A DNA stretch of 64,000 nucleotides, from contig JADGHE010000004.1 of NCBI GenBank assembly GCA_019689555.1, positions 25,974 through 89,973 of the forward strand, in the 5' to 3' direction. The position numbers and the translations under genes are program-made. Positions 15,912 through 33,784 of this stretch are shown here, piece by piece. Positions within the stretch are counted from its first letter, which is position 1, and each line of letters begins with the position of its first letter. This stretch comes from Variibacter sp. (GTDB taxonomy: Bacteria; Pseudomonadota; Alphaproteobacteria; Rhizobiales; Xanthobacteraceae). The notes beneath the pieces are model-generated. The model saw only the letters and a list, made by a program, of their open reading frames with translations, made no database searches and had not been told where the DNA came from.

Positions 15912-15956
15912 GGATGGCCTGCAGGCGGCCGCCGCGGAGACAGGTCGGGGCGGTTG

Positions 15957-17027
15957 ATGCGGCAGTTCGGTCCTTGCGTATCCCGTTTCACGGGAATGGG
16001 CGTCGTCGTCATCGGTTGCCTGCTCCTCGCCAACTGTACGACCGGCCACAAAAGCGCGAGCCGCATCGACCCGCGCTACGGGGTCGCGGCGAGCCCGCGG
16101 GTCATTCCGCCGGGCCAGCCGATCCCGAAGGGCGGCGGCACCTACCTCGTCGGCAAGCCCTATGTGGTGGCCGGCCGCACCTACTATCCCGCGGAGAACA
16201 AGCGCTATCGGCGCGAAGGCATCGCCTCCTGGTACGGGGAGGACTTCCACGGCCGGCTCACCGCCAACGGCGAAATCTACGACATGAACGCCATCTCGGC
16301 GGCGCATCCGACGCTGCCGATTCCGAGCTATGCGCGCGTCACCAACCTGCACAACGGTCGCTCGCTCATCGTGCGCGTCAACGACCGCGGCCCGTTCCAC
16401 GACGACCGCGAGATCGACCTGTCGAGCAAGGCGGCCGAGCTGCTCGGCGTCCGCAACCGCGGTGTCGCGCGGGTGCGGGTGGAATATGTCGGTCCGGCCG
16501 CGCTCGAAGGGTCCGACGACCGCAAGCTGATGGCGACGCTGCGCGAGGGCGCGCCCGCTCCCGCGCCCTCCAAGGTCATGGTGGCCTCCGCGGAGCCTTA
16601 CGTTTCGCCGGCGGCCGCGCCGGGCGGCCGGCGGCCGGCGGCCGAGGCTCCGCCGGCGCGCCGCGCATCGCCGCCGCCGGAGCGCGCGGCTTCCGAAGAC
16701 GACGAGCCCACACGGGCGACGGCCGAACGCCGCCCCGCAGGCGTGGTCGCCGAGCCTCTGCCGCCCGCGCGCAAGGTCGCGGAGGCGCGAGCCGTCGCGG
16801 CAGCGCCGGCGCCGCCCGCCCAGCGCGCCGCGCCCGTGGCCGCCGAACCGCTGCCCGCCCCGCGCAGGGTCGCGGACGCCGGGCCTTCGGCCGGCGAACG
16901 GGGCACGCCGGACCACCCGCGCCTCGTCTGGCAGGTCGGCCCCGCTCCGGCGCGCATCGCCCCGGCCGGCAGCCATGCGCCGGCGGACGCCGGCCACGGC
17001 ATCGCCACCGGCCGCGGCCTCTACTGA
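15957..17027 (+). CDS. rlpA: RlpA-family septal lytic transglycosylase, lipoprotein
   Basis: A 356-residue lipoprotein: hydrophobic N-terminus ending in lipobox 'LLLANC' (lipidated Cys near residue 28), then the RlpA double-psi barrel 'REGIASWYGEDFHGRLTANGEIYDMNAISAAHPTLPIPSYARVTNLHNGRSLIVRVNDRGPFHDDREIDLS', which includes the catalytic-type Asp in 'VNDRGPF'. RlpA cleaves glycan strands lacking stem peptides at the septum. After residue about 185 a long Ala/Pro/Arg-rich tail replaces the SPOR domain usually found; it contains a repeated 'VAEPLP'/'VAAEPLP' unit. ATG 15957 is preferred over TTG 15954. Confidence 0.92.
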   Translation: MRQFGPCVSRFTGMGVVVIGCLLLANCTTGHKSASRIDPRYGVAASPRVIPPGQPIPKGGGTYLVGKPYVVAGRTYYPAENKRYRREGIASWYGEDFHGRLTANGEIYDMNAISAAHPTLPIPSYARVTNLHNGRSLIVRVNDRGPFHDDREIDLSSKAAELLGVRNRGVARVRVEYVGPAALEGSDDRKLMATLREGAPAPAPSKVMVASAEPYVSPAAAPGGRRPAAEAPPARRASPPPERAASEDDEPTRATAERRPAGVVAEPLPPARKVAEARAVAAAPAPPAQRAAPVAAEPLPAPRRVADAGPSAGERGTPDHPRLVWQVGPAPARIAPAGSHAPADAGHGIATGRGLY

Positions 17028-17160
17028 CCGATCAAAGGCGTCAAGGGCGGGCCGGCGCCCGCGCCGCGCCTGCCGCTCACGCTGCGGTGAGTTCGCGCCG
17101 CCGCGTTATTGATTCACGCCTGTGCGGCGACTAAGCATCGAGCCACAGCGGAGCCGCACG

Positions 17161-18408
17161 ATGAGACGCCTCCTTGCTTCGTTCATCGCCCCTGCGGCGA
17201 CCGGCGCCACATGGGGCCGCCTGCGCGTCCTCGCCGCTTGCGCGCTCGCAGGCATGCTCGCGGGCCTTCCGGCAGGCCCGGCAGGGGCGCAGGGCGCCAA
17301 CAAGGGCGAGTTCCAGACCTCGGCCCCCTTCGCGATCCTGATCGAGGCCGATTCGGGCGCCGTGCTGTTCGAGAAGAACGCCGATCAGCTCATGTACCCG
17401 TCGAGCATGGCGAAGCTGATGACGGCGGAGTACGTCTTCCACGAGATCGCCGAAGGGCGGCTCTCGCTGTCGGACGAGGTCACCATCAGCGAGAACGCCT
17501 GGCGCAGGGGCGGCGCGCCCTCCGGCGGCTCCACCATGTACGCGGCCGTCCACAGCCGGGTGAAGGTCGAAGACCTCATCAAGGGCATGGTGATCCAGTC
17601 GGGCAACGACGCCTGCATCGCGCTCGCCGAGGCGATCGCCGGCAGCGAGCCCGCCTTCGCGACGCTGCTCACCAAGCGCGCGCGCGAGCTCGGGCTCACT
17701 AAGTCCACCTTCGCCAATTCCACCGGCTTGCCCGATCCCGACGGGCAGGTGACCGCGCGCGAGCTCGCGAAGCTCGCCGCGCACATCATCCACACCTATC
17801 CGCAGTTCTATCCGCTCTACCGCGAGCGAGAGTTCACCTGGAACAAGATCCGGCAGTCGAACCGCAACCCGCTGCTCGCCATGGGCATCGGTGCGGACGG
17901 CCTCAAGACCGGCTACACCAAGGAGGCGGGCTACGGCCTCGTCGGCTCCGCGGTGCAGAACGATCTGCGGCTCATCGTGGTGGTGAACGGGCTCAAGACC
18001 GCCAAGGAGCGGGCGGACGAGGCGCGCAAGCTGCTCGAATGGGGCTTCCGGGCCTTCGAATCGCGCCTCCTGTTCGCGGAAGGCGAGACCATCGGCGAGG
18101 CCAAGCTCTACGGCGGCGAGAAGGGCTATGTGCCGCTCGTCGCGAAGGGGCCGGTTCGGCTGCTCCTGCCGCGCGGCAGCAGCGAGAAGATCGTCGCCCG
18201 CATCGTCTATACCGGGCCCGTGATGGCGCCCGTGGAGCAGGGCGCGCAGATCGCCACGCTCAAGGTCTGGCGCGGGGACCACCTCACGCTGGAGGTTCCC
18301 TTGCAGGCCGCCGAGAGCGTCGCCAAAGGAACCATCACCCAGCGCGCTTTTGACGCCGCCACCGAACTCGTGATCGGGTTGTTCCGCGCCGCCGCACAGC
18401 GCATATAA
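17161..18408 (+). CDS. D-alanyl-D-alanine carboxypeptidase (PBP5/6 type)
   Basis: A 415-residue low-molecular-weight penicillin-binding protein of the S11 family. After a signal peptide (cut near 'GPAGAQG'), the motifs are SxxK at Ser82-Lys85 ('SSMAKLM'), SGN at 147-149 and KTG at 249-251 ('DGLKTGYTKEAG'), followed by the C-terminal beta domain and an amphipathic end that anchors PBP5-type enzymes ('DAATELVIGLFRAAAQRI'). It trims pentapeptide side chains in the periplasm. ATG 17161 has GGAGCC upstream; an upstream GTG (17122) would extend it. It follows rlpA and precedes tmk on the same strand. Confidence 0.95.
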   Translation: MRRLLASFIAPAATGATWGRLRVLAACALAGMLAGLPAGPAGAQGANKGEFQTSAPFAILIEADSGAVLFEKNADQLMYPSSMAKLMTAEYVFHEIAEGRLSLSDEVTISENAWRRGGAPSGGSTMYAAVHSRVKVEDLIKGMVIQSGNDACIALAEAIAGSEPAFATLLTKRARELGLTKSTFANSTGLPDPDGQVTARELAKLAAHIIHTYPQFYPLYREREFTWNKIRQSNRNPLLAMGIGADGLKTGYTKEAGYGLVGSAVQNDLRLIVVVNGLKTAKERADEARKLLEWGFRAFESRLLFAEGETIGEAKLYGGEKGYVPLVAKGPVRLLLPRGSSEKIVARIVYTGPVMAPVEQGAQIATLKVWRGDHLTLEVPLQAAESVAKGTITQRAFDAATELVIGLFRAAAQRI

Positions 18409-18435: not shown

Positions 18436-19104
18436 ATGCGCGGACGTTTCATCACATTCGAAGGCGGCGAAGGAGCCGGCAAGTCCACTCAGGTGCGCCT
18501 GCTCGCCCAGCGCCTGCGGGCGCGCGGCCTCGAGGTCGTCACGACGCGCGAGCCGGGGGGCTCGCCCGGCGCCGAGGCCATCCGCCACATCCTCCTTTCC
18601 GGGGCGGCGAAGCCGCTCGGGCCCTATGCGGAGGCGATCCTGTTCGCGGCGGCGCGGGACGACCATGTGCGCAGCGTGATCGAGCCGGCGCTGGCGCAGG
18701 GCCAATGGGTGCTGTGCGACCGCTTTGCGGATTCGACGCGGGTCTATCAGGGCGTCCTCGGCGATGTCGACCCGCGGGTGATCAACGCTCTGGAGCGGAT
18801 CGCCGTCGGCCCCGCGCGGCCCGATCTCACCGTGATTCTGGACGTGCCGCCGGAGATTGGCCTCGCGCGCGCCGCGCTCCGCCGCGGCCGGGAGGCGCCT
18901 GACCGCTTCGAGGCGGAGACGCTCGAGGCCCATGCGCGCCTGCGCGCCGCCTACCGGGCGATCGCCGAGCGCGAGCCCGAGCGCTGCGTTCTCGTGGACG
19001 CGGCGGGCGATCCCGAGCACGTCGCCGAGGCGGTCTGGGCTCACGTGGCCGAGCGCTTCGCGCTCACGACGCCGGGCCGGCAGCGGGCGGTTGCCGCGCT
19101 GTGA
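18436..19104 (+). CDS. tmk: Thymidylate kinase
   Basis: A 222-residue dTMP kinase with P-loop '[11 protein letters not shown]' at residues 7-17, the 'REPGG' Arg motif and '[13 protein letters not shown]', the DRY/F motif contacting dTMP. It phosphorylates dTMP to dTDP. It begins 27 nt after the carboxypeptidase stop, and its stop overlaps the holB GTG start by 4 nt (GTGA), giving the tmk-holB pair conserved across proteobacteria. Confidence 0.97.
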
Positions 19105-20135
19105 CACGGGCCGCGGAGGACGAGGCGCCGGACGTCCGCCACCCGCGCGAGACGTTCGATCTGTTCGGCCATGCGGAGGCCGAGCGCACGGTGCTCGACG
19201 CCTATCGCAGCGGGCGCATGCCCCATGCCTGGCTGATCGGCGGTCCCCCCGGCGTCGGCAAGGCGACGCTCGCTTATCGGATCGCGCGTTTCGTCCTTGC
19301 CCACCCGGACCCGCGGGCCGTCGCGGACGCGCAATCGCTCGCCGTCGATCCCGGCCATCCGACGGCGCGGCGCATCGCCGCCCAAGCCCATCCCGATCTG
19401 CTCGTTCTGCGCCGCACGGAGGGGGAGAGCGGGGCGCTGCGCGCGGTCATCACGGTGGGAGATGTGCGACGCACCATCGGCTTCTTCGGCTCGACGGCCG
19501 GAGAGGGGGGCTGGCGCGTCTGCATCGTCGATACCGCCGACGAGCTGCAATACCCGCAGGCCGCCAACGCCCTTCTGAAGATCATCGAGGAGCCGCCGGC
19601 GCATTCGCTGTTTCTGCTGCTGAGCGACGCGCCGGGCCGGCTGCTCGCGACCATCCGCTCGCGCTGCCGCCGCATCAGCCTGCGGCCGCTCGGGCGCGAG
19701 GACGTGATCCGCGCCGCCGCGGCGGCGACCGGCCGGCCCCCCGACGATCCCGACCTCCTCGCCGCGGCGGACGCCGCGGAAGGCAGCGTCGGCCGCGCCG
19801 TGGGCCTGCTCGACGGGCAGAAGCTTGCGCTGCTGCAGCAGATCAATGCGCTGCTCGCGCGCCTGCCCGCGGTCGATCCGCGCGCGCTGCATGCGCTCGG
19901 CGAAAACCTCGCCGCCGGCGATGCGGGCGCGCTCGCGACCTTCGTCGAAGCCGTCCAGGACTGGCTTTCGGCGCGGCTGCGCGCCTCCGACGGCAGCCTG
20001 CATCGCCTTGCGCAGGTGGCCGAGGTGTGGGAAAAGGTCGCGGCCGCCGCGCGGGACGTGGAAATCTACAATCTGGAGCGAAAGCCGCTGGTCTTCAGCG
20101 TGTTCGGATTGTTGGCCGACACGGCGCGCCGCTGA
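19101..20135 (+). CDS. holB: DNA polymerase III subunit delta'
   Basis: A 344-residue clamp-loader subunit with an AAA+ fold: P-loop '[18 protein letters not shown]', sensor-type segment '[39 protein letters not shown]' and a C-terminal helical collar. Delta' helps open the beta sliding clamp for loading at primed sites. It is translationally coupled to tmk through GTG overlapping TGA. metG follows 35 nt downstream, the usual alphaproteobacterial order tmk-holB-metG-tatD. Confidence 0.95.
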
Positions 20136-20170
20136 CGGGTCGGCCGGATTTCCGAGAGTGTGTCACGCCC

Positions 20171-21730
20171 ATGGCGAAGCCGCGCTACTACGTCACCACC
20201 GCGATCGCTTACCCGAATGGCAACCCGCATATGGGGCATGCCTACGAGGCCATTGCGACCGACGCCATCGCGCGCTTCATGCGGCTCGACGGCTACGACG
20301 TGTTCTTCCTCACGGGCACGGACGAGCACGGCCAGAAGATGCAGCAGACGGCGACGCGGCAGGGGATCACCCCGGCCGAGCTGCTCGCGCGCACGGTGCC
20401 GCGCTTCCAGGCCCTGCTCGAGCGCATGAACTGCTCGAACGACGCCTTCATCCGCACGACCGAGGAGCGCCACCACCGCGCCTCGCAGGCGATCTGGGAG
20501 CGCATGGCGGCCTCCGGCGACATCTACCTGTCGAAATACGCCGGCTGGTACTCGGTGCGTGACGAGGCGTTCTACGGCGAGGACGAGATTACGGTCGGGG
20601 AGGGGGGCGCGCGCTTCGGTCCCACGGGATCGCCGGTCGAATGGATGGAGGAGGAGAGCTACTTCTTCCGCCTCTCCAAGTATCAGGACAAGCTTCTCGA
20701 CCTCTATCGCCGGCAGCCGGATTTCGTGCTGCCGCAGGCGCGCATGAACGAGGTGGTGAGCTTCGTCCGCGGCGGGCTGCAGGATCTGTCGATCTCGCGC
20801 ACCACCTTCGACTGGGGCATTCCCGTTCCCGGCGACTCCAAGCACATCATGTATGTGTGGGTGGATGCGCTGACGAACTACATCACCGGCGTCGGCTATC
20901 CGGACACCGAGAGCGAAAGCTTCCGCCGCTACTGGCCGGCCGATCTCCACGTCATCGGCAAGGACATCCTGCGCTTCCACGCGGTCTATTGGCCGGCCTT
21001 CCTGATGTCCGCCGGGCTCGAACTGCCGCGCCGGATCTACAGCCACGGCCACGTGCTGAACCGGGGCGAGAAGATGTCGAAGTCGGTCGGCAATGTGGTC
21101 GACCCCTTCGACCTTGCGGACACCTACGGCGTCGACCAGATCCGCTATTTCCTGCTGCGGGAGGTGCCGTTCGGGCAGGACGGCAACTACAGCCACGAGG
21201 CCATCGTCAACCGCATCAACGCCGACCTCGCCAACGACCTGGGCAACCTCGCGCAGCGCTCGCTGTCGATGATTGCGCGCGGCCGCGGCGGCGTGCTGCC
21301 GCAGCCCGGCGCCCTGACCGAGGCCGACCGGCAGATTCTCGCGGCCGCCGACGGGCTCATCGCGACCGCCCGGGAGGCGATGCGCACGCAGCAGCTCCAC
21401 CAGGTGCTCAACGCCGTGTGGAGCGTCGTGGCGGAAGCCAATCGCTACTTCGCCGCCGCCGCGCCCTGGGCGCTCGCCAAGACCGATCCGGAGCGACAGG
21501 GCACGGTGCTCTACGTCACGGCCGAGGTGCTGCGCCAGGTCGGCATTCTCGCCCAGCCGTTCATTCCCGCGGGAGCCGCGAAGCTGCTCGATCTCCTGGG
21601 CATCCCGCCGGAGGAACGCGATTTCACCCGGCTGGGCGGCGCCCACCGCATCGCCGCCGGGGTGGCGCTGCCGGCGCCCACGCCCGTCTTCCCCCGCTAC
21701 GTCGAAGCCGGCCCCGACACCGCCGGCTGA
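20171..21730 (+). CDS. metG: Methionyl-tRNA synthetase
   Basis: A 519-residue class I synthetase that charges tRNA-Met. The HIGH motif appears as '[13 protein letters not shown]' (His20-His23) and the KMSKS motif is intact in '[12 protein letters not shown]'. The connective peptide has no CxxC zinc knuckle ('[18 protein letters not shown]' at the place where it would sit), and the C-terminal EMAP-like tRNA-binding domain is absent, as in the shorter MetG type of many alphaproteobacteria. It lies between holB and the TatD DNase gene. Confidence 0.97.
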
Positions 21731-21747
21731 CCCCGTCCGCACGCATC

Positions 21748-22542
21748 ATGCTGGTCGACAGCCACTGCCACCTCGACTTTCCGGTTTTCGCGGACGAGCT
21801 GGACGAGGTGGTCGCCCGCGCGCGGGCCCGCGGCGTCGGCCGCATGGTGACGATCTCGACGCGGGTGCGCGCGCATGCGCGCGTGCTGGAAATCGCCGAG
21901 CGCTTCGACGACGTCTTCTGCTCGGTCGGGACGCACCCGCATCATGCCCACGAGGAGCTTGACGTCACGGCCGAAGAGCTCGCGGCGCGCTGCGCGCATG
22001 CCAAGGTCGTGGCGATCGGGGAGGCGGGGCTCGACTACCACTACGATTCGAGCCCCCGCGCGGCGCAGGAGCGGGGCCTGCGGACGCACATCGCCGCCGC
22101 CCGCGCGACCGGGTTGCCCCTCGTCATCCATAGCCGCGACGCCGACGAGGACATGGCGCGTATCCTGCGCGAAGAGATGGCGGCCGGAACCTTTTCCGCC
22201 GTGCTGCACTGCTTCACCGGGAGCGCAAGACTCGCGCAAGAGGCCGTGGAACTCGGGTGCTACATTTCCTTTTCCGGCATCCTCACGTTCAAGAAATCCG
22301 GGGCGCTGCGCGAGATCGCGGCCGGCCTTCCGGCCGACCGCATTCTGGTGGAGACGGACGCGCCCTATCTCGCGCCGGATCCCTTCCGCGGAAGGCGCAA
22401 CGAGCCCGCTTACGTGGCCGAGACCGCCAGGGTCCTGGCCGCGCTGCGCGGGCTTTCGCCGGAGGCGCTCGCGGCGCAGACAAGCGCCAATTTCTTCCGC
22501 CTGTTTAGCAAGGTTCCACAAGAGATTGCCGGCGGATCATGA
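21748..22542 (+). CDS. TatD family metal-dependent deoxyribonuclease
   Basis: A 264-residue TIM-barrel hydrolase. Metal-binding residues are visible at 'VDSHCHLD' (His6, His8), 'IGEAGLDYHY', 'IHSRDA', 'LHCFTG' and 'ETDAPYLAPDP', the full TatD signature set. Members are Mg-dependent 3'-5' exonucleases implicated in DNA repair and D-Tyr-tRNA quality functions; the exact role here is unproven. It starts 17 nt after metG, and its stop overlaps the start of the metallo-hydrolase gene by 4 nt (ATGA). Confidence 0.94.
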   Translation: MLVDSHCHLDFPVFADELDEVVARARARGVGRMVTISTRVRAHARVLEIAERFDDVFCSVGTHPHHAHEELDVTAEELAARCAHAKVVAIGEAGLDYHYDSSPRAAQERGLRTHIAAARATGLPLVIHSRDADEDMARILREEMAAGTFSAVLHCFTGSARLAQEAVELGCYISFSGILTFKKSGALREIAAGLPADRILVETDAPYLAPDPFRGRRNEPAYVAETARVLAALRGLSPEALAAQTSANFFRLFSKVPQEIAGGS

Positions 22543-23372
22543 CACTGCGGTTCACGATTCTGGGCTGCGGCTCCTCGGCCGGCGTGCCGCGCCTCGGGTC
22601 GGGCTGGGGCGCCTGCGACCCGTCCAATCCCAGAAACCGGCGGCGGCGCTGCTCGCTGCTCGTCGAGCGCATCAGCGACTCCGGGATCACGCGGGTGCTG
22701 ATCGACACGGCGCCGGACCTGCGGGAGCAGCTCCTCGATGCCGAGGTGACGCATCTCGACGGCGTGCTTTACACCCATGCGCATGCCGACCACACCCACG
22801 GCATCGACGACCTTCGCGCGCTCGCCCTGCATCAGCGGAAGCGCATCGACGTGTACATGGACGAGCCGACCGCGCGCTCGCTGCGCACGCGCTTCGGCTA
22901 CTGCTTCGAGACGCCGCCCGGAAGCTCGTATCCGCCGATCCTGCGCGAGCATCGGCTGGAGCCCGGGACGCCGGTCGCGATCGAAGGGGCAGGGGGCGCG
23001 GTGATCGCCCGGCCGTTCCTGCAGGCGCACGGGGACATCACCTCGCTCGGCTTTCGCATCGGCAACCTCGCCTATTCCTGCGACGTGAACGGCCTGCCCG
23101 ACGAAAGCGTTGCCGCGCTTGCCGACCTCGACGTCTGGATCGTCGACGCCTTGCGCTATGCGCCGCATCCGAGCCACTGGACCGTCGGCGAGACGCTGAA
23201 CTGGATTGCGCGCCTCAGGCCGCGCCGCGCGATCCTCACCAACCTGCATGTCGACCTGGATTACGAGACGCTGCGGGCCAAGCTGCCGCCGCGGGTCGAG
23301 CCCGCCTTCGACGGCATGCGGGTGACCCTGCCGGCCGTCTCGGCGCTTCAGCCCTCGGCCGCAAGCACTTGA
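22539..23372 (+). CDS. MBL-fold metallo-hydrolase (PhnP-like)
   Basis: A 277-residue metallo-beta-lactamase-fold protein: 'MTLRFTILGCGSSAGVPRLGSGWGACDP', zinc-binding 'THAHADHTHGIDDLR' (HxHxDH), a later His in 'AHGDITSLGFRIGNLAYSCDVNGLPDES', and 'HLVDLDYETL'-like 'NLHVDLDYETL'. It resembles PhnP and related cyclic phosphodiesterases. The conserved place after tatD in alphaproteobacteria hints at nucleic-acid or nucleotide metabolism, but no function is proven. Translationally coupled to the TatD gene, it is the last gene before the dif site. Confidence 0.9.
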   Translation: MTLRFTILGCGSSAGVPRLGSGWGACDPSNPRNRRRRCSLLVERISDSGITRVLIDTAPDLREQLLDAEVTHLDGVLYTHAHADHTHGIDDLRALALHQRKRIDVYMDEPTARSLRTRFGYCFETPPGSSYPPILREHRLEPGTPVAIEGAGGAVIARPFLQAHGDITSLGFRIGNLAYSCDVNGLPDESVAALADLDVWIVDALRYAPHPSHWTVGETLNWIARLRPRRAILTNLHVDLDYETLRAKLPPRVEPAFDGMRVTLPAVSALQPSAAST

Positions 23373-23428: not shown

Positions 23429-23456
23429 ATGTTCCATAATATCTCTTATGCGAATC
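23429..23456 (-). other. dif: Candidate dif site (XerC/XerD chromosome-dimer resolution)
   Basis: Read on the minus strand the 28 bp are: left arm GATTCGCATAA, centre GAGATA, right arm TTATGGAACAT. Against the Escherichia coli dif (GGTGCGCATAA, TGTATA, TTATGTTAAAT) 20 of 28 positions agree, including the whole CATAA...TTATG core with the exact 6-bp spacer. It is the only such site I noticed and sits in a 217-nt intergenic gap between the metallo-hydrolase gene and mazG. Gene orientation and FtsK polar octamers (KOPS) both change direction here (see findings). XerC/XerD are not in the window. Confidence 0.88.
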
Positions 23457-23589: not shown

Positions 23590-24411
23590 ATGAAGCCGAG
23601 CCGTGACATCTCGGACCTGATCGCGATCATGGCCGCGCTGCGGGATCCGGAGCGCGGCTGCCCGTGGGACCGCGTGCAGACGTTCGCGACCATTGCCCCC
23701 TACACCATCGAGGAAGCCTGCGAGGTCGCGGACGCGGTCGCGCACGGCGATCTGGACGAGCTGCGCGACGAGCTCGGCGACCTGCTGCTTCAGGTCGTCT
23801 TTCACGCGCGCATGGCCGAGGAAGCCGGCGCCTTCGATTTCGGCGGCGTGGTCGAGGCGATCACCGCCAAGCTGCTGCGGCGGCACCCGCACGTCTTCGG
23901 GGATGTCGGCGCGCTGTCGGCCGAGGAGGTCGGCGACCTCTGGCGGCGGATCAAGGCCGAGGAGAAGGCCGAGCGCGCCGCAAGGCGCGGTCCTGGCGCG
24001 AGCGCGGCGGACGGGGCGCTCTCCGGCGTCCCGGCCGGGCTCCCTGCCCTGGCGCGCGCGTTGAAGCTCCAGACCAAGGCGGCCGCCGTGGGCTTCGACT
24101 GGGGCGAGCCCGGGCCCGTGGTGGCGAAGATCGCGGAGGAAGCGGCGGAGATCGCCGCCGCGGCCGCCGCCGGCGACAAAAACGGGATCGCGGACGAGAT
24201 CGGCGATCTTCTGTTTGCCGTGGTCAATCTCGCCCGCCACCACGCGGTCGATCCGGAGATGGCCCTGCGGGCGACCAACGCCAAGTTCGAGCGGCGTTTC
24301 AAGGCAATTGAGGACGCCCTCGCCGCTTCCGGCAAGACGCCGAAGGACGCCACCCTCGCCGAGATGGACGCCCTGTGGGAAGCCGCCAAGCAGGCGGAAC
24401 GCTCAGGCTGA
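23590..24411 (+). CDS. mazG: Nucleoside triphosphate pyrophosphohydrolase MazG
   Basis: A 273-residue protein with two MazG all-alpha domains. Domain 1 has 'CPWDRVQTFATIAPYTIEEACEVADAVAHGDLDELRDELGDLLLQVVFHARMAEE' with the EEx2E/Ex2D Mg-binding residues; domain 2 has 'KIAEEAAEIAAAAAAGDKNGIADEIGDLLFAVVNLARHH'. MazG hydrolyses NTPs, cleaning nucleotide pools and lowering ppGpp-linked stress. It is on the + strand facing hflX, whose end it overlaps by 9 bp. Confidence 0.96.
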   Translation: MKPSRDISDLIAIMAALRDPERGCPWDRVQTFATIAPYTIEEACEVADAVAHGDLDELRDELGDLLLQVVFHARMAEEAGAFDFGGVVEAITAKLLRRHPHVFGDVGALSAEEVGDLWRRIKAEEKAERAARRGPGASAADGALSGVPAGLPALARALKLQTKAAAVGFDWGEPGPVVAKIAEEAAEIAAAAAAGDKNGIADEIGDLLFAVVNLARHHAVDPEMALRATNAKFERRFKAIEDALAASGKTPKDATLAEMDALWEAAKQAERSG

Positions 24412-25803
24412 TTTGCGGCGCGGCACGCCTTCCAGGTGGAAGCGCCGGGCCACCTGGCCGGCCTTGCTGGGATCGACCCGCACCCGCAGCGCGACCGCGC
24501 CGTCGGGCCGGCTCGCGCGCTCCAGAACCTCGGCATGACGATAGAGCCAGCTCAAGCTCGCGCCGTCCTCGGGCGGCACCGTCAGGTCGACGGTCACCCG
24601 GGTGTGGGCGAGCCGGTCCTCGATGACCGTGGTGAGCTTCTCGAGCCCCTCGCCCGTCAAGGCGGAGGCAAGAACGACCGGAGGCGCGTCGGGCCCCCGG
24701 CGCGCGGCCGTGTTTTCGACTCGCGTGCGAGCGTCATCTCTTAAGCTGTCGATTTTATTCCAGATTTCGATGACGCGCCCGGCCGCTGGGTCAATCCCGA
24801 GCTCTTCCAGGACGCGCGCGACATCCTGCGCCTGCGCATCGGTGTCGGGGTGAGAAATGTCGCGCACGTGGAGGATGATATCGGCCTCGATCACCTCCTC
24901 GAGCGTGGCGCGGAAGGCGGCGATGAGCAGCGTCGGCAGATCGGAGATGAAGCCGACCGTGTCCGAGAGAATGACCGTCGCGCCCTGCGGCAGCTTGACC
25001 GCGCGCAGGGTCGGGTCGAGCGTCGCGAACAGCATGTCGGCCTCGAGCACCTGCCCGCCGGTCAGTCGGTTGAACAGCGTCGATTTGCCCGCATTGGTAT
25101 ATCCGACGAGCGCCACGATCGGGTACGGCACCCGCCGCCGGCCGACGCGGTGCAGCGCGCGGGTGCGCTTCACCCCTTCGAGCTCGCGCTCGATGCGGGC
25201 GAGCCGTTCCTCGATCGCGCGCCGGTCGGCCTCGATCTGCGTCTCGCCCGGGCCGCCGAGAAAGCCGAAGCCGCCGCGCTGGCGCTCCAGGTGGGTCCAG
25301 GAGCGCACCAGCCGGCTTTTCTGGTAGGTCAGATGGGCGTGCTCGACCTGCAGCGCGCCCTCGCGCGTGCGCGCGCGCTGCCCAAAGATCTCGAGAATGA
25401 GGCCGGTGCGGTCGAGCACCTTGGCGCCCCACGCCCTCTCGAGGTTGCGCTGCTGCACGGGCGAGAGGGCGCAGTCGAGGATGACGAGGCCCGCCTCGCA
25501 CGCCTTCACCAGTCCGGCGATCTCGCCGACCTTGCCTTTGCCGATATAGGTCGCGGGCGTGATGGCGCCGAGCGTGACCACACCCGCATGGACGACTTCG
25601 AGGTCGATGGCCCGCGCGAGCCCGACCGCCTCCTCCAGCCGCGCCGCCACGCTGCGCGCCGCGACGTGGCCCCGCCCGCCCGGGCGCCCATCAGGCGGCC
25701 GGCGGAGATAGGGGCCGAGGACGATAGCGCGCTTGGTGGCCGCCGGCGTTATGCCTTCCGGCGACGGGTGGTGGAATCGCGGGTTGCGCGCGGGCAGTTC
25801 CAA
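24403..25803 (-). CDS. hflX: Ribosome-associated GTPase HflX
   Basis: A 466-residue GTPase. The N-terminal HflX domain carries '[21 protein letters not shown]' and '[26 protein letters not shown]'; the G domain has G1 'GYTNAGKST', G3 '[10 protein letters not shown]' and G4 'NKID'. HflX splits stalled ribosomes under stress. The best start is TTG at 25803, directly after the hfq TGA, with GGAGAGAAGG 6-8 nt upstream inside hfq; no ATG or GTG fits nearby. So hflX is probably translationally coupled to hfq. Confidence 0.94.
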
Positions 25804-26064
25804 TCAGGCCTTCTCTCCCGTTGCGCCGTCCTCACCCCCCTCGAAGAGCTGAATGGGGTGGCCCGGCATGATGGTTGATATAGCGTGCTTGTAGACGAGC
25901 TGGGAGTGGCCGTCGCGCCGCAAAAGCACGCAGAAATTATCGAACCATGTGACAACGCCCTGGAGCTTCACTCCATTCACGAGGAAAATCGTGAGCGGTG
26001 TCTTGTTCTTCCGAACATGGTTGAGAAAGGTATCTTGAAGGTTTTGTGGACGATCGGACGCCAT
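25804..26064 (-). CDS. hfq: RNA chaperone Hfq
   Basis: An 86-residue Sm-like protein. The Sm1 part '[58 protein letters not shown]' is near-identical to Hfq consensus, including the 'YKHAIST' Sm2 motif that binds U-rich 3' ends; a short acidic tail ('[13 protein letters not shown]') follows. It forms a hexamer that pairs small RNAs with mRNAs and controls nif and nitrogen-related genes in rhizobia. ATG 26064 is chosen; an upstream in-frame extension to 26118 is unlikely. It lies between the transaminase and hflX. Confidence 0.97.
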
Positions 26065-26544
26065 TGCCGCTGTTCCGTTATGCGCCCGCGGGTGTGCCGA
26101 CCTTGAACGGTCGTGCATCCTGATCTGTGGCGACCGGCCTCAGCCCCCGCAAGCTCGTGGCCCGCCATTAGATGGCACGCCAAGCAGCTGCGCAAGCCCA
26201 TCTTGTCCGCATTCACACGTGCAGCGTGCTTGCGCCGCAGGCGCCGCCCGCACGACGCGGCTCTGCCGGTTGCAGCAGGTCCGAACGTCCGTACGTCGTC
26301 GGCAAAACCCGCCGGGCGGGCCACAGACTCAACGCGCGGGAGTGCCAACGCGTGCCACGAGATCATGAAAATCCGGCACCTCTTTGGCGCGGCAGCCTTG
26401 GCGCCTTCATGGGCGGGCCTGCCGGGGGCGAATCAGGGGAGCTGTGACGCGGGTCCGCGGGGGGCGAGGCCCCCTCCCTGACGGCGACCGTTTCGCCCTC
26501 GCCTTTCGGGCACCCCGGCGCCGCCGGAGGGCGGGCCGGCGCGC
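26065..26544. other. 480-nt gap between dat and hfq
   Basis: No convincing gene. It should contain the hfq promoter (reading left). A hairpin GGGGGC (26460-26465) with GCCCCC (26469-26474) and a GAG loop lies about 70 nt beyond the dat stop and may end dat transcription, though it lacks a U-run. A short open frame at 26365-26481 starts like a signal peptide but ends after 38 residues. Many relatives have other genes here, so the gap may be a deletion scar. Confidence 0.6.
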
Positions 26545-27402
26545 CTAGCCGATTTCCGCGAAGCGGTGGAAGTCGCGGCGCAGCACCGTGGCGATCATGC
26601 CGGGCGCGCCGTTGGCGACCGGGCGGCCGTCGATGCTGACGACCGGCATGACGATCTGGCTCGCCGAGGTGATGAAGGCCTCGCGCGCCGCATAGGCCTC
26701 GGCGACGGTGAACGGCCGCTCCTCCAGCTCGAGGCCGTTGGCGGCGAGAACGTCGAGCAGAACGGTGCGGGTGATGCCGCGCAGGATCGCATGATCGGCG
26801 GGGCGGGTCACGACCTTGCCGGAGGCCGTGACGATCCAGGCATTGCTCGACGAGCCCTCGGTCACGGTGCCGTCGGGCGCGACGAACCACGCCTCCTTGG
26901 CGCCCTGTTCGCGCGCCGCCTGCTTCGCGAGCACGTTCGGCAGCAGCGCGATCGACTTGATGTCGACGCGCGGCCAGCGGTTCTCCGGCACCGTGATCAC
27001 GGCGATGCCTTCGGCGGCCGCCTTTTCGAGGCGCTCGCGATCGAGGCTGCGCGCGGTCACCACGACGCTCGGGCGCGTTCCCGCTGGCGGAAAGGCGTGG
27101 TCGCGCGGCGCGACGCCCCGCGTGATCTGCAGATAGACGATGCCGTCGCGCACGCGGTTGCGGCGCACCGTCTCGCGCAAAACCATGCCGAGCGCCTTGA
27201 GGGGCATCGGCGCGGCGATGCGCAGCTCAGCAAGCGAGCGCTGCAGCCGCTCCATGTGGCGCCGCTCGTCGACGAGGCGCCCTCCCCGCACCTCGCAGAC
27301 CTCGTACACGCCGTCGGCGAACTGATAGCCGCGGTCCTCGACGTGCACCGTGGCGCGCCGGTGGGGAACATAGCGGCCGTTGACGTAAGCGACGCGGGAC
27401 AT
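26545..27402 (-). CDS. dat: D-amino-acid transaminase (class IV aminotransferase)
   Basis: A 285-residue fold-type IV PLP enzyme: 'RVAYVNGRYVPHRRATVHVEDRGYQFADGVYEV' at the N-terminus, 'DIKSIALLPNVLAKQAAREQGAKEAWFV' with the PLP-binding Lys in 'DIKS', and 'VTEGSSSNAWIV' contacting the phosphate. It interconverts D-amino acids and 2-oxo acids and can supply D-Glu or D-Ala for the wall. ATG 27402 has an excellent SD, AAGGAGGAG. A D-amino-acid transaminase between ntrX and hfq is a recurrent order in Hyphomicrobiales. Confidence 0.92.
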   Translation of the reverse strand: MSRVAYVNGRYVPHRRATVHVEDRGYQFADGVYEVCEVRGGRLVDERRHMERLQRSLAELRIAAPMPLKALGMVLRETVRRNRVRDGIVYLQITRGVAPRDHAFPPAGTRPSVVVTARSLDRERLEKAAAEGIAVITVPENRWPRVDIKSIALLPNVLAKQAAREQGAKEAWFVAPDGTVTEGSSSNAWIVTASGKVVTRPADHAILRGITRTVLLDVLAANGLELEERPFTVAEAYAAREAFITSASQIVMPVVSIDGRPVANGAPGMIATVLRRDFHRFAEIG

Positions 27403-27451
27403 CGCTCCTCCTTGCAAACCCCGCCGCGCGGTGCGCCGGCGGACAATCCGT

Positions 27452-28816
27452 TCACCCGACGCCGAGCGCCTTCAGCTTGCGGTGCAGCGCCGAGCGCTCC
27501 ATGCCGACGAACTCGGCGGTGCGCGAGATGTTGCCGCCGAAGCGGCTGATCTGCGCCACGAGATATTCGCGCTCGAACACCTCGCGTGCCTCGCGCAGCG
27601 GCAGCCCCATGAGGTGCTCGCCCCCGTTGCCGTTGGGCATGCTCGGCACCATGGAGCCGACATCCTGCGGCAGCATGCTCGCCGTGATGACGGCGTCCGG
27701 GTCGCCGCCGGCCAGAATCATCAGGCGTTCGACGTTGTTGCGGAGCTGGCGAACATTGCCCGGCCAGTTGTGCGACTGCAGAACCGCCATCGCGTCCTCG
27801 CCGATGCGCCGCTTGGGCAGCCCCGTCGACTGCGAAATCTGATCCATGAAGTATTCGACGAGCTCCGGAATGTCCTCGCGGCGCTCCGCGAGCGGCGGCA
27901 CTCGGATCGGCACCACCGAAAGCCGGTGGTACAGGTCCTCGCGGAAGCGGCCGGCGGCGATCTCCGCCTCCAGATTGCGCGCCGTCGAGGAGATGATGCG
28001 CACGTCGACGCTCACCTTCTGGCTTCCGCCGACGCGCTGGAAGGTCTGGTCGACGAGGACGCGGAGGATCTTGTTCTGCGTCTCCCGCGGCATGTCGGCA
28101 ATTTCGTCGATGAACAGGGTGCCGCCGTGCGCCTCCTCCAGCGCGCCGACCTTACGGTTTTCCGAGCCGTTCGGCTGCTCGACCCCGAACAGCTCCACCT
28201 CCATGCGCTCCGGCGTGATCGCGGCCGCGTTGATGACCACGAAGGGGCCGTTCGCCCGCTCGGAGAGGCTGTGAATGGTGCGGGCCGTCAGTTCCTTGCC
28301 GGCGCCCGAGGGCCCGACGATCATGATCCGGCTGTTGGTCGGCGCCACCTTCTCGATCACCTGCCGGAGCTGGTTCATGACCGGCGAGCGGCCGATCATC
28401 GTGGTCGGCGCGAGCTGCTTGAGCGCCTTCACCTCGCGCCGCAGCTGCGAGGTCTCGAGCGCCCGCGCCGCGACGAGCACCAGCCGGTCGGCCTTGAACG
28501 GCTTCTCGATGAAGTCGTAGGCGCCGCGCTTGATGGCGGAGACGGCGGTCTCGATGTTGCCGTGCCCCGAGATCATCACGACGGGGAGCTCCGGATGCCG
28601 CTCCTTGATGGCGTCGAGCACCTGCAGCCCGTCGAGCCGGCTCCCCTGCAGCCAGATGTCGAGGAAGACGAGGTGCGGCCGCCGCGCCGCGACCGCCGCC
28701 AGCGCCTCGTCGCTGTTGGCGGCGACGCGAGGGCTGTAGCCCTCGTCCTCCAGTATTCCCGAGACGAGATCGCGAATATCGGCTTCGTCGTCGACGACAA
28801 GAATATCGGGCCCCAT
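27452..28816 (-). CDS. ntrX: Response regulator NtrX
   Basis: A 454-residue NtrC-like regulator: receiver domain with phosphoacceptor Asp53 ('VFLDIW'), AAA+ domain with Walker A 168-175 ('GPSGAGKE'), Walker B 'GGTLFIDEIADMP', and a Fis-type HTH ending 'NISRTAEFVGMERSALHRKLKALGV'. The sigma54-contacting GAFTGA loop is missing; that stretch reads 'GVEQPNGSENRKVGALEEAH' (211-230), as known for NtrX, so it probably acts with sigma70 promoters or as a repressor. It starts 6 nt after ntrY and is its cognate regulator. The ATG is at 28816. Confidence 0.96.
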   Translation of the reverse strand: MGPDILVVDDEADIRDLVSGILEDEGYSPRVAANSDEALAAVAARRPHLVFLDIWLQGSRLDGLQVLDAIKERHPELPVVMISGHGNIETAVSAIKRGAYDFIEKPFKADRLVLVAARALETSQLRREVKALKQLAPTTMIGRSPVMNQLRQVIEKVAPTNSRIMIVGPSGAGKELTARTIHSLSERANGPFVVINAAAITPERMEVELFGVEQPNGSENRKVGALEEAHGGTLFIDEIADMPRETQNKILRVLVDQTFQRVGGSQKVSVDVRIISSTARNLEAEIAAGRFREDLYHRLSVVPIRVPPLAERREDIPELVEYFMDQISQSTGLPKRRIGEDAMAVLQSHNWPGNVRQLRNNVERLMILAGGDPDAVITASMLPQDVGSMVPSMPNGNGGEHLMGLPLREAREVFEREYLVAQISRFGGNISRTAEFVGMERSALHRKLKALGVG

Positions 28817-28822
28817 AATGCT

Positions 28823-31075
28823 TCAAGTCCCAACGTTTTGTTCGGCGGCGCCCTCCGTGGGCTCGCCGGTTCGCGCGGCGTTGGCGGAAAACCGCAGCCG
28901 CATCCATGCCCCCCGCCCGCCCGACGCCACCGCCGGGGCGTCGTTGAGCTCGATTCGTCCTCCGTGTTCGTCCAAGATCCGTTCGACGATGGCGAGACCG
29001 AGGCCGGTGCCCTTCTCCCGCGTCGTCACATAGGGCTCGAGCAGCCGGCTCCGGTTCTCCTTCGGCAGACCGATGCCGTTGTCGATCACATCGATGACGA
29101 TCTCGTCGTCCACGCGCGCCGCCTTCACCTCGATCCGCCCCTTGCCGAGTTCGGCCGGCGGGACGGCGGCGATCGCCTCCGTGGCGTTCTTGACGATGTT
29201 GGTGAGCGCCTGCGAGATCAGCCGGCGGTCGAAGCGGGCCGCCATCGGGTCCTCCGCGAGATCGACGACGAAGTCGATCTCCGGGTGCGCGACCTGAATG
29301 AGGAACACGACCTGGCGGACGGTGTCGGCCACGTCCTCGCTCTCGATCACCGGTTTCGGCATGCGCGCGAAGCGCGAGAACTCGTCCACCATCCGCTTGA
29401 TGTCGTCCACCTGGCGGATGATCGTGTCCGTGCACTGCTCGAACACGCTGCGATCGTCGGTGAGCACCTTGCCGTATTTGCGCTTCAGCCGCTCGGCCGA
29501 GAGCTGGATCGGCGTCAGCGGGTTCTTGATCTCGTGGGCGATGCGGCGGGCGATGTCGGCCCAGGCGCTGCTGCGCTGGGCGGCGACCAGCTCGGTGATG
29601 TCGTCGAGCGTGATGACGTAGCCGTGCTCGGACTCGGGCGCCTGCTCGGTGGTCACGCGGACCGAGAGATTGCGCTCGCGGCCCGCGCGGTTGATGGTGA
29701 CCTGCCCCTGCACGAGGCGCTGGTTGCCCGCGCGCGCCGTCTCGAGGAGCGGCGCAAGCTCCGGCACGACCTCGGCGACCGGCCGCCCGAGAACGTCGGC
29801 CTCGGCGTGCCCGATCAGCTTCTCGGCGGAGCGGTTGAGGATGCTGACGCGCCCCTCCGCGTCGACGCCGATGACGCCGGCGCTCGCGCCCGCGAGCACG
29901 GCCTCGGTGAAACGGCGGCGCCGGTCGATCAGGTCGCGCGCGCGCAGAAGATCGTCACGCTGGGTGCGCAGCTCCTGCGTCATCTTGTTGAAGGTCTCGC
30001 CGAGGCGCGCGAGATCCCCCTCGCGCCGGCGTACCGGCACCTGGACGTGCAGGTTCCCGGTCGAGACGAGGTTCGCCGCGCCGATGAGCCGGCGAATGGG
30101 TGCGACCAGCGCATTGGCGAAATTCAGCCCGATCCACACCGCAGACAAGAGCACGATGAGTGCGATCACCGTGTACATCAGCGCGAACGCGACCTGCACG
30201 CCCGTGCGGCGCGCTTCGAGGTTCGCATATTCGGCGACGCTCGCCTGCGTCTCGCGCAGCTGCTCCAGCACGCGCGGCACCAGGGGGCGGGAGACGTAGA
30301 GGTAGTAGTCGTCGAAATTGTTGAGCTTGATGACGGCCGCCACCTCGTCCGTGTCCGGCACCAGCGCGATGCGGGGGGCGGCCGGGGTGATCTGCTCCAG
30401 GGTCTCGGGGGGCGGCAGCGAGTACTCCTTGTCGGGCTTGACGCCGAACTGCTCGATCCGATGGCGGTTCTTGTCGATGATCATCGCCGTCGGCAGCCCG
30501 CGGACGGAAGCCTGCGCGGAGAGGAACTGGCGGAACCGCTCGCGGTCCTGGTCGAACAGCGGCTTGGCGCGCGAAACGTCGAAGGCCATGGCGACGATGT
30601 CGCCGCGGATCATCTCGGCGTGCTCGCGCACATAGGCCTCGGCGACGCTCAGCGAGTTCGCGATCACCGCCCGTGTGCGGGTCGAGAACCAGCGGTCGAG
30701 CCCGCGATCGAGCGTGATGCTCGCCACGACGGCGACGAGCACGGCCGGAACCACCGCGATCACCGAGAACAGGCCGACGATGCGCACATGCAGCCGCGCG
30801 CCGGCGCGTCCGGCCCGGCGCGCCTCGACGATCTTCCACAGCTCCCACCCGATGATCGACACGAGCACGATCACGGCGAGCGCGTTCGCGAGCAGCAGCG
30901 TGACGACCACTTCGTGGGTCGGCAGGATGGGCGTGAGCCCGGTGAGGACGAGGAAGGTCACCAGCGCCGAGATCAGCGCGAGCCCGATCGCGACCGGACC
31001 GAGAAGGCGGGTTCCGAGTCGGGGCGGAGCGGCTCCTCCGCGGTCTGCCGTGGCGACGTCTTCCAGCGTGGTCAC
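28823..31075 (-). CDS. ntrY: Membrane sensor histidine kinase NtrY
   Basis: A 750-residue kinase. Helices lie at about 29-50, 57-79, 99-121 and 297-319, with a periplasmic sensor region between the last two (about 122-296). HAMP (about 320-372), PAS ('AVLAGASAGVIGVDAEGRVSILNRSAEKLIG'), HisKA with His514 in '[17 protein letters not shown]', and HATPase ('FDRRLISQALTNIVKNATEA', 'DNGIGLP', 'GTGLGLAIV') follow. It controls NtrX in response to nitrogen, redox or oxygen cues. The start is GTG 31075; the gap to ntrC upstream is 132 nt and contains a palindrome and a hairpin. Confidence 0.95.
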   Translation of the reverse strand: MTTLEDVATADRGGAAPPRLGTRLLGPVAIGLALISALVTFLVLTGLTPILPTHEVVVTLLLANALAVIVLVSIIGWELWKIVEARRAGRAGARLHVRIVGLFSVIAVVPAVLVAVVASITLDRGLDRWFSTRTRAVIANSLSVAEAYVREHAEMIRGDIVAMAFDVSRAKPLFDQDRERFRQFLSAQASVRGLPTAMIIDKNRHRIEQFGVKPDKEYSLPPPETLEQITPAAPRIALVPDTDEVAAVIKLNNFDDYYLYVSRPLVPRVLEQLRETQASVAEYANLEARRTGVQVAFALMYTVIALIVLLSAVWIGLNFANALVAPIRRLIGAANLVSTGNLHVQVPVRRREGDLARLGETFNKMTQELRTQRDDLLRARDLIDRRRRFTEAVLAGASAGVIGVDAEGRVSILNRSAEKLIGHAEADVLGRPVAEVVPELAPLLETARAGNQRLVQGQVTINRAGRERNLSVRVTTEQAPESEHGYVITLDDITELVAAQRSSAWADIARRIAHEIKNPLTPIQLSAERLKRKYGKVLTDDRSVFEQCTDTIIRQVDDIKRMVDEFSRFARMPKPVIESEDVADTVRQVVFLIQVAHPEIDFVVDLAEDPMAARFDRRLISQALTNIVKNATEAIAAVPPAELGKGRIEVKAARVDDEIVIDVIDNGIGLPKENRSRLLEPYVTTREKGTGLGLAIVERILDEHGGRIELNDAPAVASGGRGAWMRLRFSANAARTGEPTEGAAEQNVGT

Positions 31076-32659: not shown

Positions 32660-33784
32660 CTATGGGCCGGCCGTCTCGCCGTCGCCGGCGTACATCGGCA
32701 TCAGCACGCGGAACGTGGTGCGGCGCGGCTGGGATTCGCACTCGATGATGCCCCCGTGATCGCCGACGATCTTGGCGACCAGCGCAAGGCCGAGGCCGCT
32801 GCCGCTGGGTTTGGTCGTGACGAACGGATCGAACAGGTGCGGCATCAGGTCCTCGGGAACGCCCGGCCCGTTGTCCTTGACGCAGAACTCGAGCGGCAGC
32901 GACACGCGCGCCTTGCTCCCGGGCAGGGAGAGGCGCACGCCGGGCCGGAAAGCGGTCGTCAACTGGATCTCGCCGTCGGGGGCGTCGCCGATCGCCTCGG
33001 CCGCGTTCTTCACCAAGTTCAGGAACACCTGGATGAGCTGATCGCGATTGGCGTAGACCGGCGGCAGCGACGGGTCGTACTCCTCGACGAAGGCGATGTG
33101 CCGCGCAAAGCCGGTCTGAGCGAGCTTCTTCACGTGTTCGAGCACGACATGGATGTTGACCGGCTCCCGCTCGACGGGGCGGTCGTCGCCGAACACCTCC
33201 ATGCGCTCGACGAGCTTCACGATGCGGTCGGCCTCGTCGCAGATGAGCCGCGTGAGGGTACGGTCCTCGTCGGCGACCGACTGCTCCAAAAGCTGCGCGG
33301 CGCCGCGGATGCCCGACAGCGGATTCTTGATCTCGTGCGCCAGCATGGCGGCGAGCGCGATGACGGACCGGGCTGCGCCGCGATGGGTGAGCTGGCGGTC
33401 CATCTTGTCCGCGCGCGTGCGCTCCTGCAGCATCACGACGACCTGGTCGGAATTTTCCGACAGCGGCGCGACATGCAGATCGACGATGCGCTCGCCGGGA
33501 TTGCGCGGCGTGCCGAGATCGACCCGGTATTCGTTCACCGCCGCGCCGCGCGCCCTCACCTGCTCGATGAGGCCGAGCAGCGGGCTGCCGAACGGGACGA
33601 GGTCGCGCACGAAGTGGCGGCGCAGCACGGGCGCCGAGGTCGCGAAGAAGGCCTCGGCCGCCGTGTTGGCCTCCAAAATGCGCCCGTCGCTCGCCACGAT
33701 GAGGATCGGGTGCGGCAGCGCGTTGATCGCGGCATCGGCAGGCGAGCGGTCGATCAGCGTATCCGTCGTCTCGGCGCGGTTCAT
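32660..33784 (-). CDS. ntrB: Nitrogen-control histidine kinase NtrB
   Basis: A 374-residue cytosolic kinase. It has an N-terminal PAS domain ('[26 protein letters not shown]'), then HisKA with His150 ('[23 protein letters not shown]'), then HATPase ('[21 protein letters not shown]', '[12 protein letters not shown]', '[21 protein letters not shown]'). NtrB phosphorylates NtrC unless PII signals nitrogen excess. ATG 33784 overlaps the dusB TGA by 4 nt, so ntrB is translationally coupled to dusB, the classic nifR3-ntrB arrangement. Confidence 0.97.

Follow-up and report, generated by a model that had tools for sequence, protein, structure and literature searches.

Within bacterial chromosomes, the terminus is commonly regarded as a fluid region. 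In Escherichia coli, whose dif site works with XerCD and FtsK/KOPS, the motif GGGNAGGG converges on dif (also in the portion of PMC12153318 consulted). The dif region of E. coli K-12 (ydeQRST-hipA, 1.59 Mb; position taken from the consulted part of PMC2731167, which used a slightly shorter version of the K-12 record) is located 1.3 Mb from mazG (2.91 Mb). The dif site of Bradyrhizobium japonicum USDA 110 is intergenic (PMC2731167, Table 1). In Agrobacterium, placed in the Rhizobiales in PMC2731167, dif lies at the convergence of GGGNAGGG, which is used there as the FtsK-orienting motif (PMC12153318). The gene neighbourhood of this last site is not given in the text of PMC12153318 that we examined, from which mazG, hflX and hfq are all absent. 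As far as the part consulted goes, a proteobacterial survey of 2009 did not associate dif with any specific genetic environment. A search for the term mazG gave no occurrence in the text of PMC2731167, PMC3025954, PMC12153318 and PMC7901474, and our literature search, whose scope did not extend to subscription papers such as the one on Caulobacter dif, found no paper naming mazG, XerD and dif together.

The site analysed here lies in a stretch of 64,000 nucleotides, hereafter the window. It has the same 11-6-11 layout as E. coli dif and shares 20 of its 28 bases, an identity proposed in a preliminary description of this DNA and obtained again when the 28-mer was recounted. The outer XerD arm reads TTAAAT in the window and GAACAT in E. 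coli. The likeness to the B. japonicum site listed in PMC2731167 is closer, with 25 of 28 bases equal, an identical XerC arm and an intergenic position in both; the B. japonicum site differs in two bases of the centre, which reads GGTATA there and GAGATA in the window, and in a single base of the XerD arm. As in E. coli and Agrobacterium, GGGNAGGG converges on the site, but whereas dif and mazG are far apart in E. coli, they adjoin each other in the window. Taken alone, the site is an ordinary dif, and the novelty lies in its fixed neighbourhood.

The 28-bp site and its predicted recombinases

On the minus strand of the window, positions 23456-23429 read GATTCGCATAA-GAGATA-TTATGGAACAT, in agreement with the arms and 6-bp centre that had been proposed for that strand. 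Comparison with the dif sites in the consulted part of PMC2731167 identifies GATTCGCATAA (23446..23456) as the predicted XerC-binding arm and TTATGGAACAT (23429..23439) as the predicted XerD-binding arm, on either side of the centre GAGATA (23440..23445). The 28-mer thus consists of two 11-bp arms, conserved in their inner parts, and a 6-bp centre, as expected for a chromosomal dif of the XerCD type. It lies in an intergenic gap of 217 nt, between the end of an MBL-fold ORF at 23372 and the start of mazG at 23590, coordinates that reproduce the gap given in the preliminary description, and 135 bp separate it from the mazG start. Only 9 of its 28 bases are G or C, as compared to a G+C fraction of 0.693 in the window.

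The copy number of the site was determined in the draft genome (3,310,686 bases in 108 contigs, 99.17% complete), in which the window belongs to contig C55 (89,973 bases). The full 28-mer had a single match at up to three mismatches, as expected for a site present once per chromosome, and the genome-wide scan that had been suggested revealed no better dif match elsewhere. A looser 24-base pattern matched 23429-23456 at one mismatch and gave nine other matches at three mismatches, one of which was 23429-23456 itself on the opposite strand; the same pattern reversed gave six matches as a control. Within the window, CGCATAA-N6-TTATG occurred once without mismatch, and the only additional match at up to two mismatches was again the near-palindromic 23429-23456 on the opposite strand. 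Shuffled versions of the window contained on average 0.70 such matches, with two or more in 16 of 100 shuffles.

The draft genome also encodes candidates for the expected proteins. Among four matches to the Phage_integrase domain, a protein of 316 aa (L047, ORF 1453-2403) was matched better by the XerD model than by the XerC model (328.7 bits, NCBIfam equivalog cut-off 329.6) and exceeded the cut-off of the Xer subfamily model (364.4 against 279), while a protein of 332 aa (L048, ORF 997-1995) was best matched by the XerC model (304.2, NCBIfam equivalog cut-off 335.15). A single FtsK gamma domain was detected (98.5 bits, cut-off 30.6). Genes for XerC-like, XerD-like and FtsK-gamma-like proteins are therefore all present, with both Xer proteins scoring below the XerC/XerD equivalog cut-offs.

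A site of the form ATTCGCATAA-N6-TTATGNNAA, with up to two mismatches, was found in at least 126 of 149 genomes of the same family. This number is a lower bound since, among four relatives without a match that were checked, two carry variant sites near mazG (AATCGCAGAAGAGATATTATGGAAT in G072 and AGTCGCAGAAGAGATATTATGGAAC in G040, about 0.6 kb upstream of the gene); no site was detected within about 4 kb upstream of mazG in the other two (G013 and G001). In 41 oriented sites, the information content was 1.76 bits for the XerC arm, 1.24 for the centre and 1.68 for the XerD arm, and it dropped to 0.15 and 0.08 bits in the two 60-base flanks, so that conservation does not extend beyond the 28-bp site. 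Its sequence, the genome scan, its conservation in the family and its alignment to known dif sites make it very likely that 23429-23456 is dif, the site of chromosome dimer resolution of this alphaproteobacterium.

Motif polarity and GC skew around the site

The preliminary description had placed the replication terminus at this site and had proposed a change of GC skew as a check. Contig C55 (90 kb) showed no such change: its skew is flat (0.0005 left of the site and 0.0023 right of it) and is consequently of no help as a terminus test. By contrast, the strand of GGGNAGGG reverses at the site, and it is on this basis that the terminus reading holds. Left of the site, C55 carries 13 occurrences on the plus strand and none on the minus strand, as against 1 plus and 6 minus on the right (Fisher p 0.00018). 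The occurrences nearest to dif (22987..22994, plus strand, on the left; 24042..24049, minus strand, on the right) are both directed at it, as are those at 20597..20604 (plus) and 27280..27287 (minus); the motif scan found a single one on C55 directed away from dif (32921..32928, plus). The FtsK-orienting motifs thus converge on the site along the 90 kb of this single contig of the draft.

The polarity recurs in relatives: within 10 kb of dif, 40 of them together carry 122 plus and 10 minus occurrences of GGGNAGGG on the left and 7 plus and 117 minus on the right. On C55, GGGNAGGG was compared with gapped permutations of its letters, 42 in all, and proved the most polar among those occurring more than twice. 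However, 39 of the 42 were polar in the same sense (above zero), so that part of the reversal is a general strand bias of G-runs.

Two relatives with single-contig genomes, G037 and G246, were analyzed through ten evenly spaced 20-kb samples each. In G246, GGGNAGGG was distributed +4/-15 on the right of dif and +10/-2 on the left, with two far right samples reversed (1:0 and 3:1), and the skew was negative in four of five samples on the right and positive in all five on the left. In G037, the right side showed +1/-13 and the left side +6/-6; the two nearest left samples had the expected polarity (+2/-0 and +3/-1), and the remaining three of the five on that side had the opposite one (0:2, 1:2 and 0:1). 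The skew of G037 was negative in four of five right samples and positive in three of five left samples. In both genomes, GGGNAGGG therefore converges around dif in the samples nearest to it, and the sampled skew changes sign there.

We considered whether 23429-23456 could be a relic dif, the true terminus being elsewhere. The flat skew of C55 would agree with this, but the 99% complete assembly holds no better match and a relic would not account for the strand reversal of GGGNAGGG, so that we regard this possibility as very remote. The presence of a single copy, the conservation limited to the footprint, the convergence of GGGNAGGG and the Xer and FtsK genes all fit, and support the conclusion that the site is dif at the replication terminus.

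The gene neighbourhood of dif and its probable inheritance

In the window, dif is bordered on the left by a conserved block of plus-strand genes: tmk, encoding dTMP kinase (18436..19104), holB, DNA polymerase III delta prime (19101..20135), metG, methionine--tRNA ligase (20177..21730, residues 441-948 of ORF 18857-21730), a tatD-family DNase gene (21751..22542, residues 371-623 of ORF 20641-22542) and, at the end of the block, the left neighbour of dif, an MBL-fold metallohydrolase gene (22539..23372). These genes were identified by HMM matches, from which the approximate starts of metG and tatD were taken, and for the MBL-fold gene also by comparison with relatives. Further left, on the same strand, are an rlpA-like septal ring lytic transglycosylase gene (15954..17027) and a D-Ala-D-Ala carboxypeptidase-like gene (dacA-like, 17122..18408). 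The right neighbour, mazG (23590..24411, plus strand), is transcribed away from dif. It is followed on the minus strand by hflX (24403..25803), transcribed towards dif, hfq (25804..26118), a D-amino-acid transaminase gene (26545..27417), ntrX (27452..28816) and an adjoining sensor kinase gene, named ntrY by position only (28823..31075). Thus the tmk-holB-metG-tatD-MBL and hflX-hfq-ntr blocks, one on each side, are both directed at dif. As a side observation, mazG is the only one of the named genes to be transcribed away from dif, and it would meet the incoming replication fork head-on.

The same address was looked for in the 149 genomes of the family. In the scan for dif, 22 of 146 matches were marked non-canonical and four more (three in G106, one in G011) were left out; mazG was entered for 140 of 141 matching genomes, the one left out (G125) having a weak fragment. 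A canonical site and mazG were both found in at least 123 genomes, and on one contig in at least 112. Among the matches listed, mazG was on the XerC side and diverged from dif, as in the window, in 107 of 112 genomes, and on the other side and strand in 5. With the side and strand of the window, the distance from dif to mazG was at most 200 bp in 37 of the 112, at most 1 kb in 58, at most 10 kb in 82 and at most 100 kb in 105, and two genomes had larger distances (284 kb and 1.13 Mb), again among the matches listed.

Such proximity raises the question of whether the palindrome instead controls mazG or the MBL gene, as an operator or part of a promoter. Its constant place near mazG would then be explained: it is 135 bp from the mazG start in the window, and within 200 bp in the 37 family genomes just mentioned. 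An element of this kind does not predict that conservation should end at a 28-bp 11-6-11 footprint, that FtsK-orienting motifs should converge on it, or that it should persist in family genomes in which mazG is 5 to 65 kb away. Moreover, in three of 12 genomes of the class without a site near mazG, the site was found 19-67 bp after the MBL gene, mazG being 47 kb away (G428) or on another contig (G317 and G373). We judge the operator explanation very improbable. Regulation of mazG as the mechanism was rejected on the footprint, the convergence of motifs and the persistence of the site far from mazG; the 28-mer could conceivably have an additional regulatory role beside its function as dif.

Outside the family, 145 genomes of the order were searched, retaining only sites with the arm TTATG(G/T)AA, so that some other matches were left out. 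A retained site shared its contig with mazG in 89 genomes, including G275, whose site is spurious. Among these, the arrangement of the window was found within 10 kb in 66, within 1 kb in 44 and within 200 bp in 32, and beyond 100 kb in 2; another 21, the spurious one included, had the site in the other arrangement, with a different side and strand relative to mazG. There were 39 further mazG-bearing genomes of the order without a retained site. In 40 stretches from the family and the order, hand-picked mostly for a dif near mazG, so that these numbers are not frequencies, tmk was found on the left of dif in 35 and mazG on its right in 37, and dif lay between co-directional MBL and mazG genes in 32. 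The tightest gap (L243) left 23 and 14 bp on the two sides, as judged from alignment ends. A rearranged terminus neighbourhood was observed in one stretch (L275, from G183), in which the hflX-hfq-ntrX block and mazG are on opposite sides of dif.

In the class, mazG was matched in 105 of 143 genomes. Three of these belong to the order of the window, and 35 were left out (G306, whose contig ends at mazG, and the 34 genomes with the lowest scores), leaving 67. A dif-like 28-mer with an ATAA-N5-ATTATG core, on the same strand relative to mazG as in the window, was found 5' of mazG in 42 of these 67 genomes, namely in 14 of 27 stretches with 1.5 kb upstream of mazG and in 28 of 40 longer ones that reach as far as 17 kb, the 28 coming from 22 families; a stricter motif gave 26 of 40 instead. 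No site 5' of mazG on the expected strand was found in the other 25, and a short stretch with a site on the opposite strand only (L287) was not counted. Single-base shuffles of the class upstream stretches gave a match in 6 of 800 cases. In three more of the 12 class genomes without a site near mazG (G384, G324 and G371), the MBL gene and mazG are on the same contig, 47, 29 and 145 kb apart, and no site was found at either end. The class motif was also absent from 12 mazG regions from outside the Alphaproteobacteria (eight with 3 kb and four with 1.5 kb upstream); a looser core gave a match in one of them (L388), about 2.8 kb upstream, but its outer arm does not resemble that of dif. At all three levels, family, order and class, many genomes thus have a dif-like site in this gap with the relative strand of the window. 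The address has exceptions, a minority at each level.

Among the 40 longer class stretches, the site was present in 23 of 23 that contained the tatD or the MBL gene upstream of mazG, as compared to 5 of 17 otherwise (Fisher p 1.1e-6), which we read as vertical inheritance of the terminus. The place beside mazG might also have been reached repeatedly by a true dif, the gap being a preferred landing place, and the genomes lacking the address at every level could be taken in this sense; but repeated arrivals would hardly keep the same strand and both flanks together, nor yield 23 of 23 sites beside the left block, and we find this account improbable. Inheritance of the terminus address from early in the class is likely, judging from sequence comparison. 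The explanation that combines both elements, a site that is dif and an inherited address in the gap between the block and mazG, is in our opinion highly probable as a whole.

According to this explanation, the common ancestor would already have had its terminus in the gap between the block and mazG. FtsK, predicted to be steered by the GGGNAGGG motifs converging on the 28-mer, would bring dif to the septum, where XerC and XerD would separate two fused sister chromosomes by cutting and rejoining them, a step presumed to involve binding of the recombinases, activation by FtsK and resolution of the dimer. If an inversion or a translocation separated dif from its flanks, the site would lose its register with the FtsK-orienting motifs and the replichores their balance; such changes would be lost, while insertions adjoining dif would be tolerated. 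The loss of register on moving dif would be the likely reason why the address was kept. We consider the full proposition, a class-wide address held since the common ancestor, with dif pinning unrelated blocks and with motif polarity and replichore balance purging moves, to have slightly better than even chances. If dif has indeed been beside mazG since early in the class, the position of the terminus would be a deeply conserved trait. A search for mazG would then orient many draft alphaproteobacterial genomes, with the exceptions marking moves of the terminus, and the question of whether the polarity of FtsK motifs freezes gene order around dif becomes directly testable.

Possible insertions beside dif and dif-like sites elsewhere

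Among the matches listed, the gap between dif and mazG measured 10-65 kb in 23 of the 112 family genomes. In four genomes (G094, G026, G066 and G088) it has grown to 34-65 kb, which suggests that the XerC side of dif is an insertion hot spot. The gaps of 10-65 kb, which suggest insertions beside dif, together with viral stretches carrying the same arms, could indicate that 23429-23456 is not the chromosomal dif and instead stems from an Xer-using phage or element, as an att site or a dif-like site of the plasmid type. Rather than marking the edge of such an element, the site has core genes on both sides, a single copy in the genome and the same address across the family, and, of the 112 viral sites, no more than 8 share a centre with those listed from chromosomal sites. 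A mobile origin of the 28-mer is therefore hardly credible, and we retain its identification as the chromosomal dif.

Second sites with canonical arms, other centres and a location on other contigs were noticed in several relatives (G049:C4, G082:C3 and C4, G106:C7, G019:C46 and G101:C29); these are perhaps dif sites of secondary replicons, held apart by their centres. The 112 viral stretches, all from IMG/VR, carry TTCGCATAA-N6-TTATGGAA and are candidate Xer-using phages of Alphaproteobacteria; their commonest centres are CATACA (6 stretches), CATGCA (5) and CATCCA (4).
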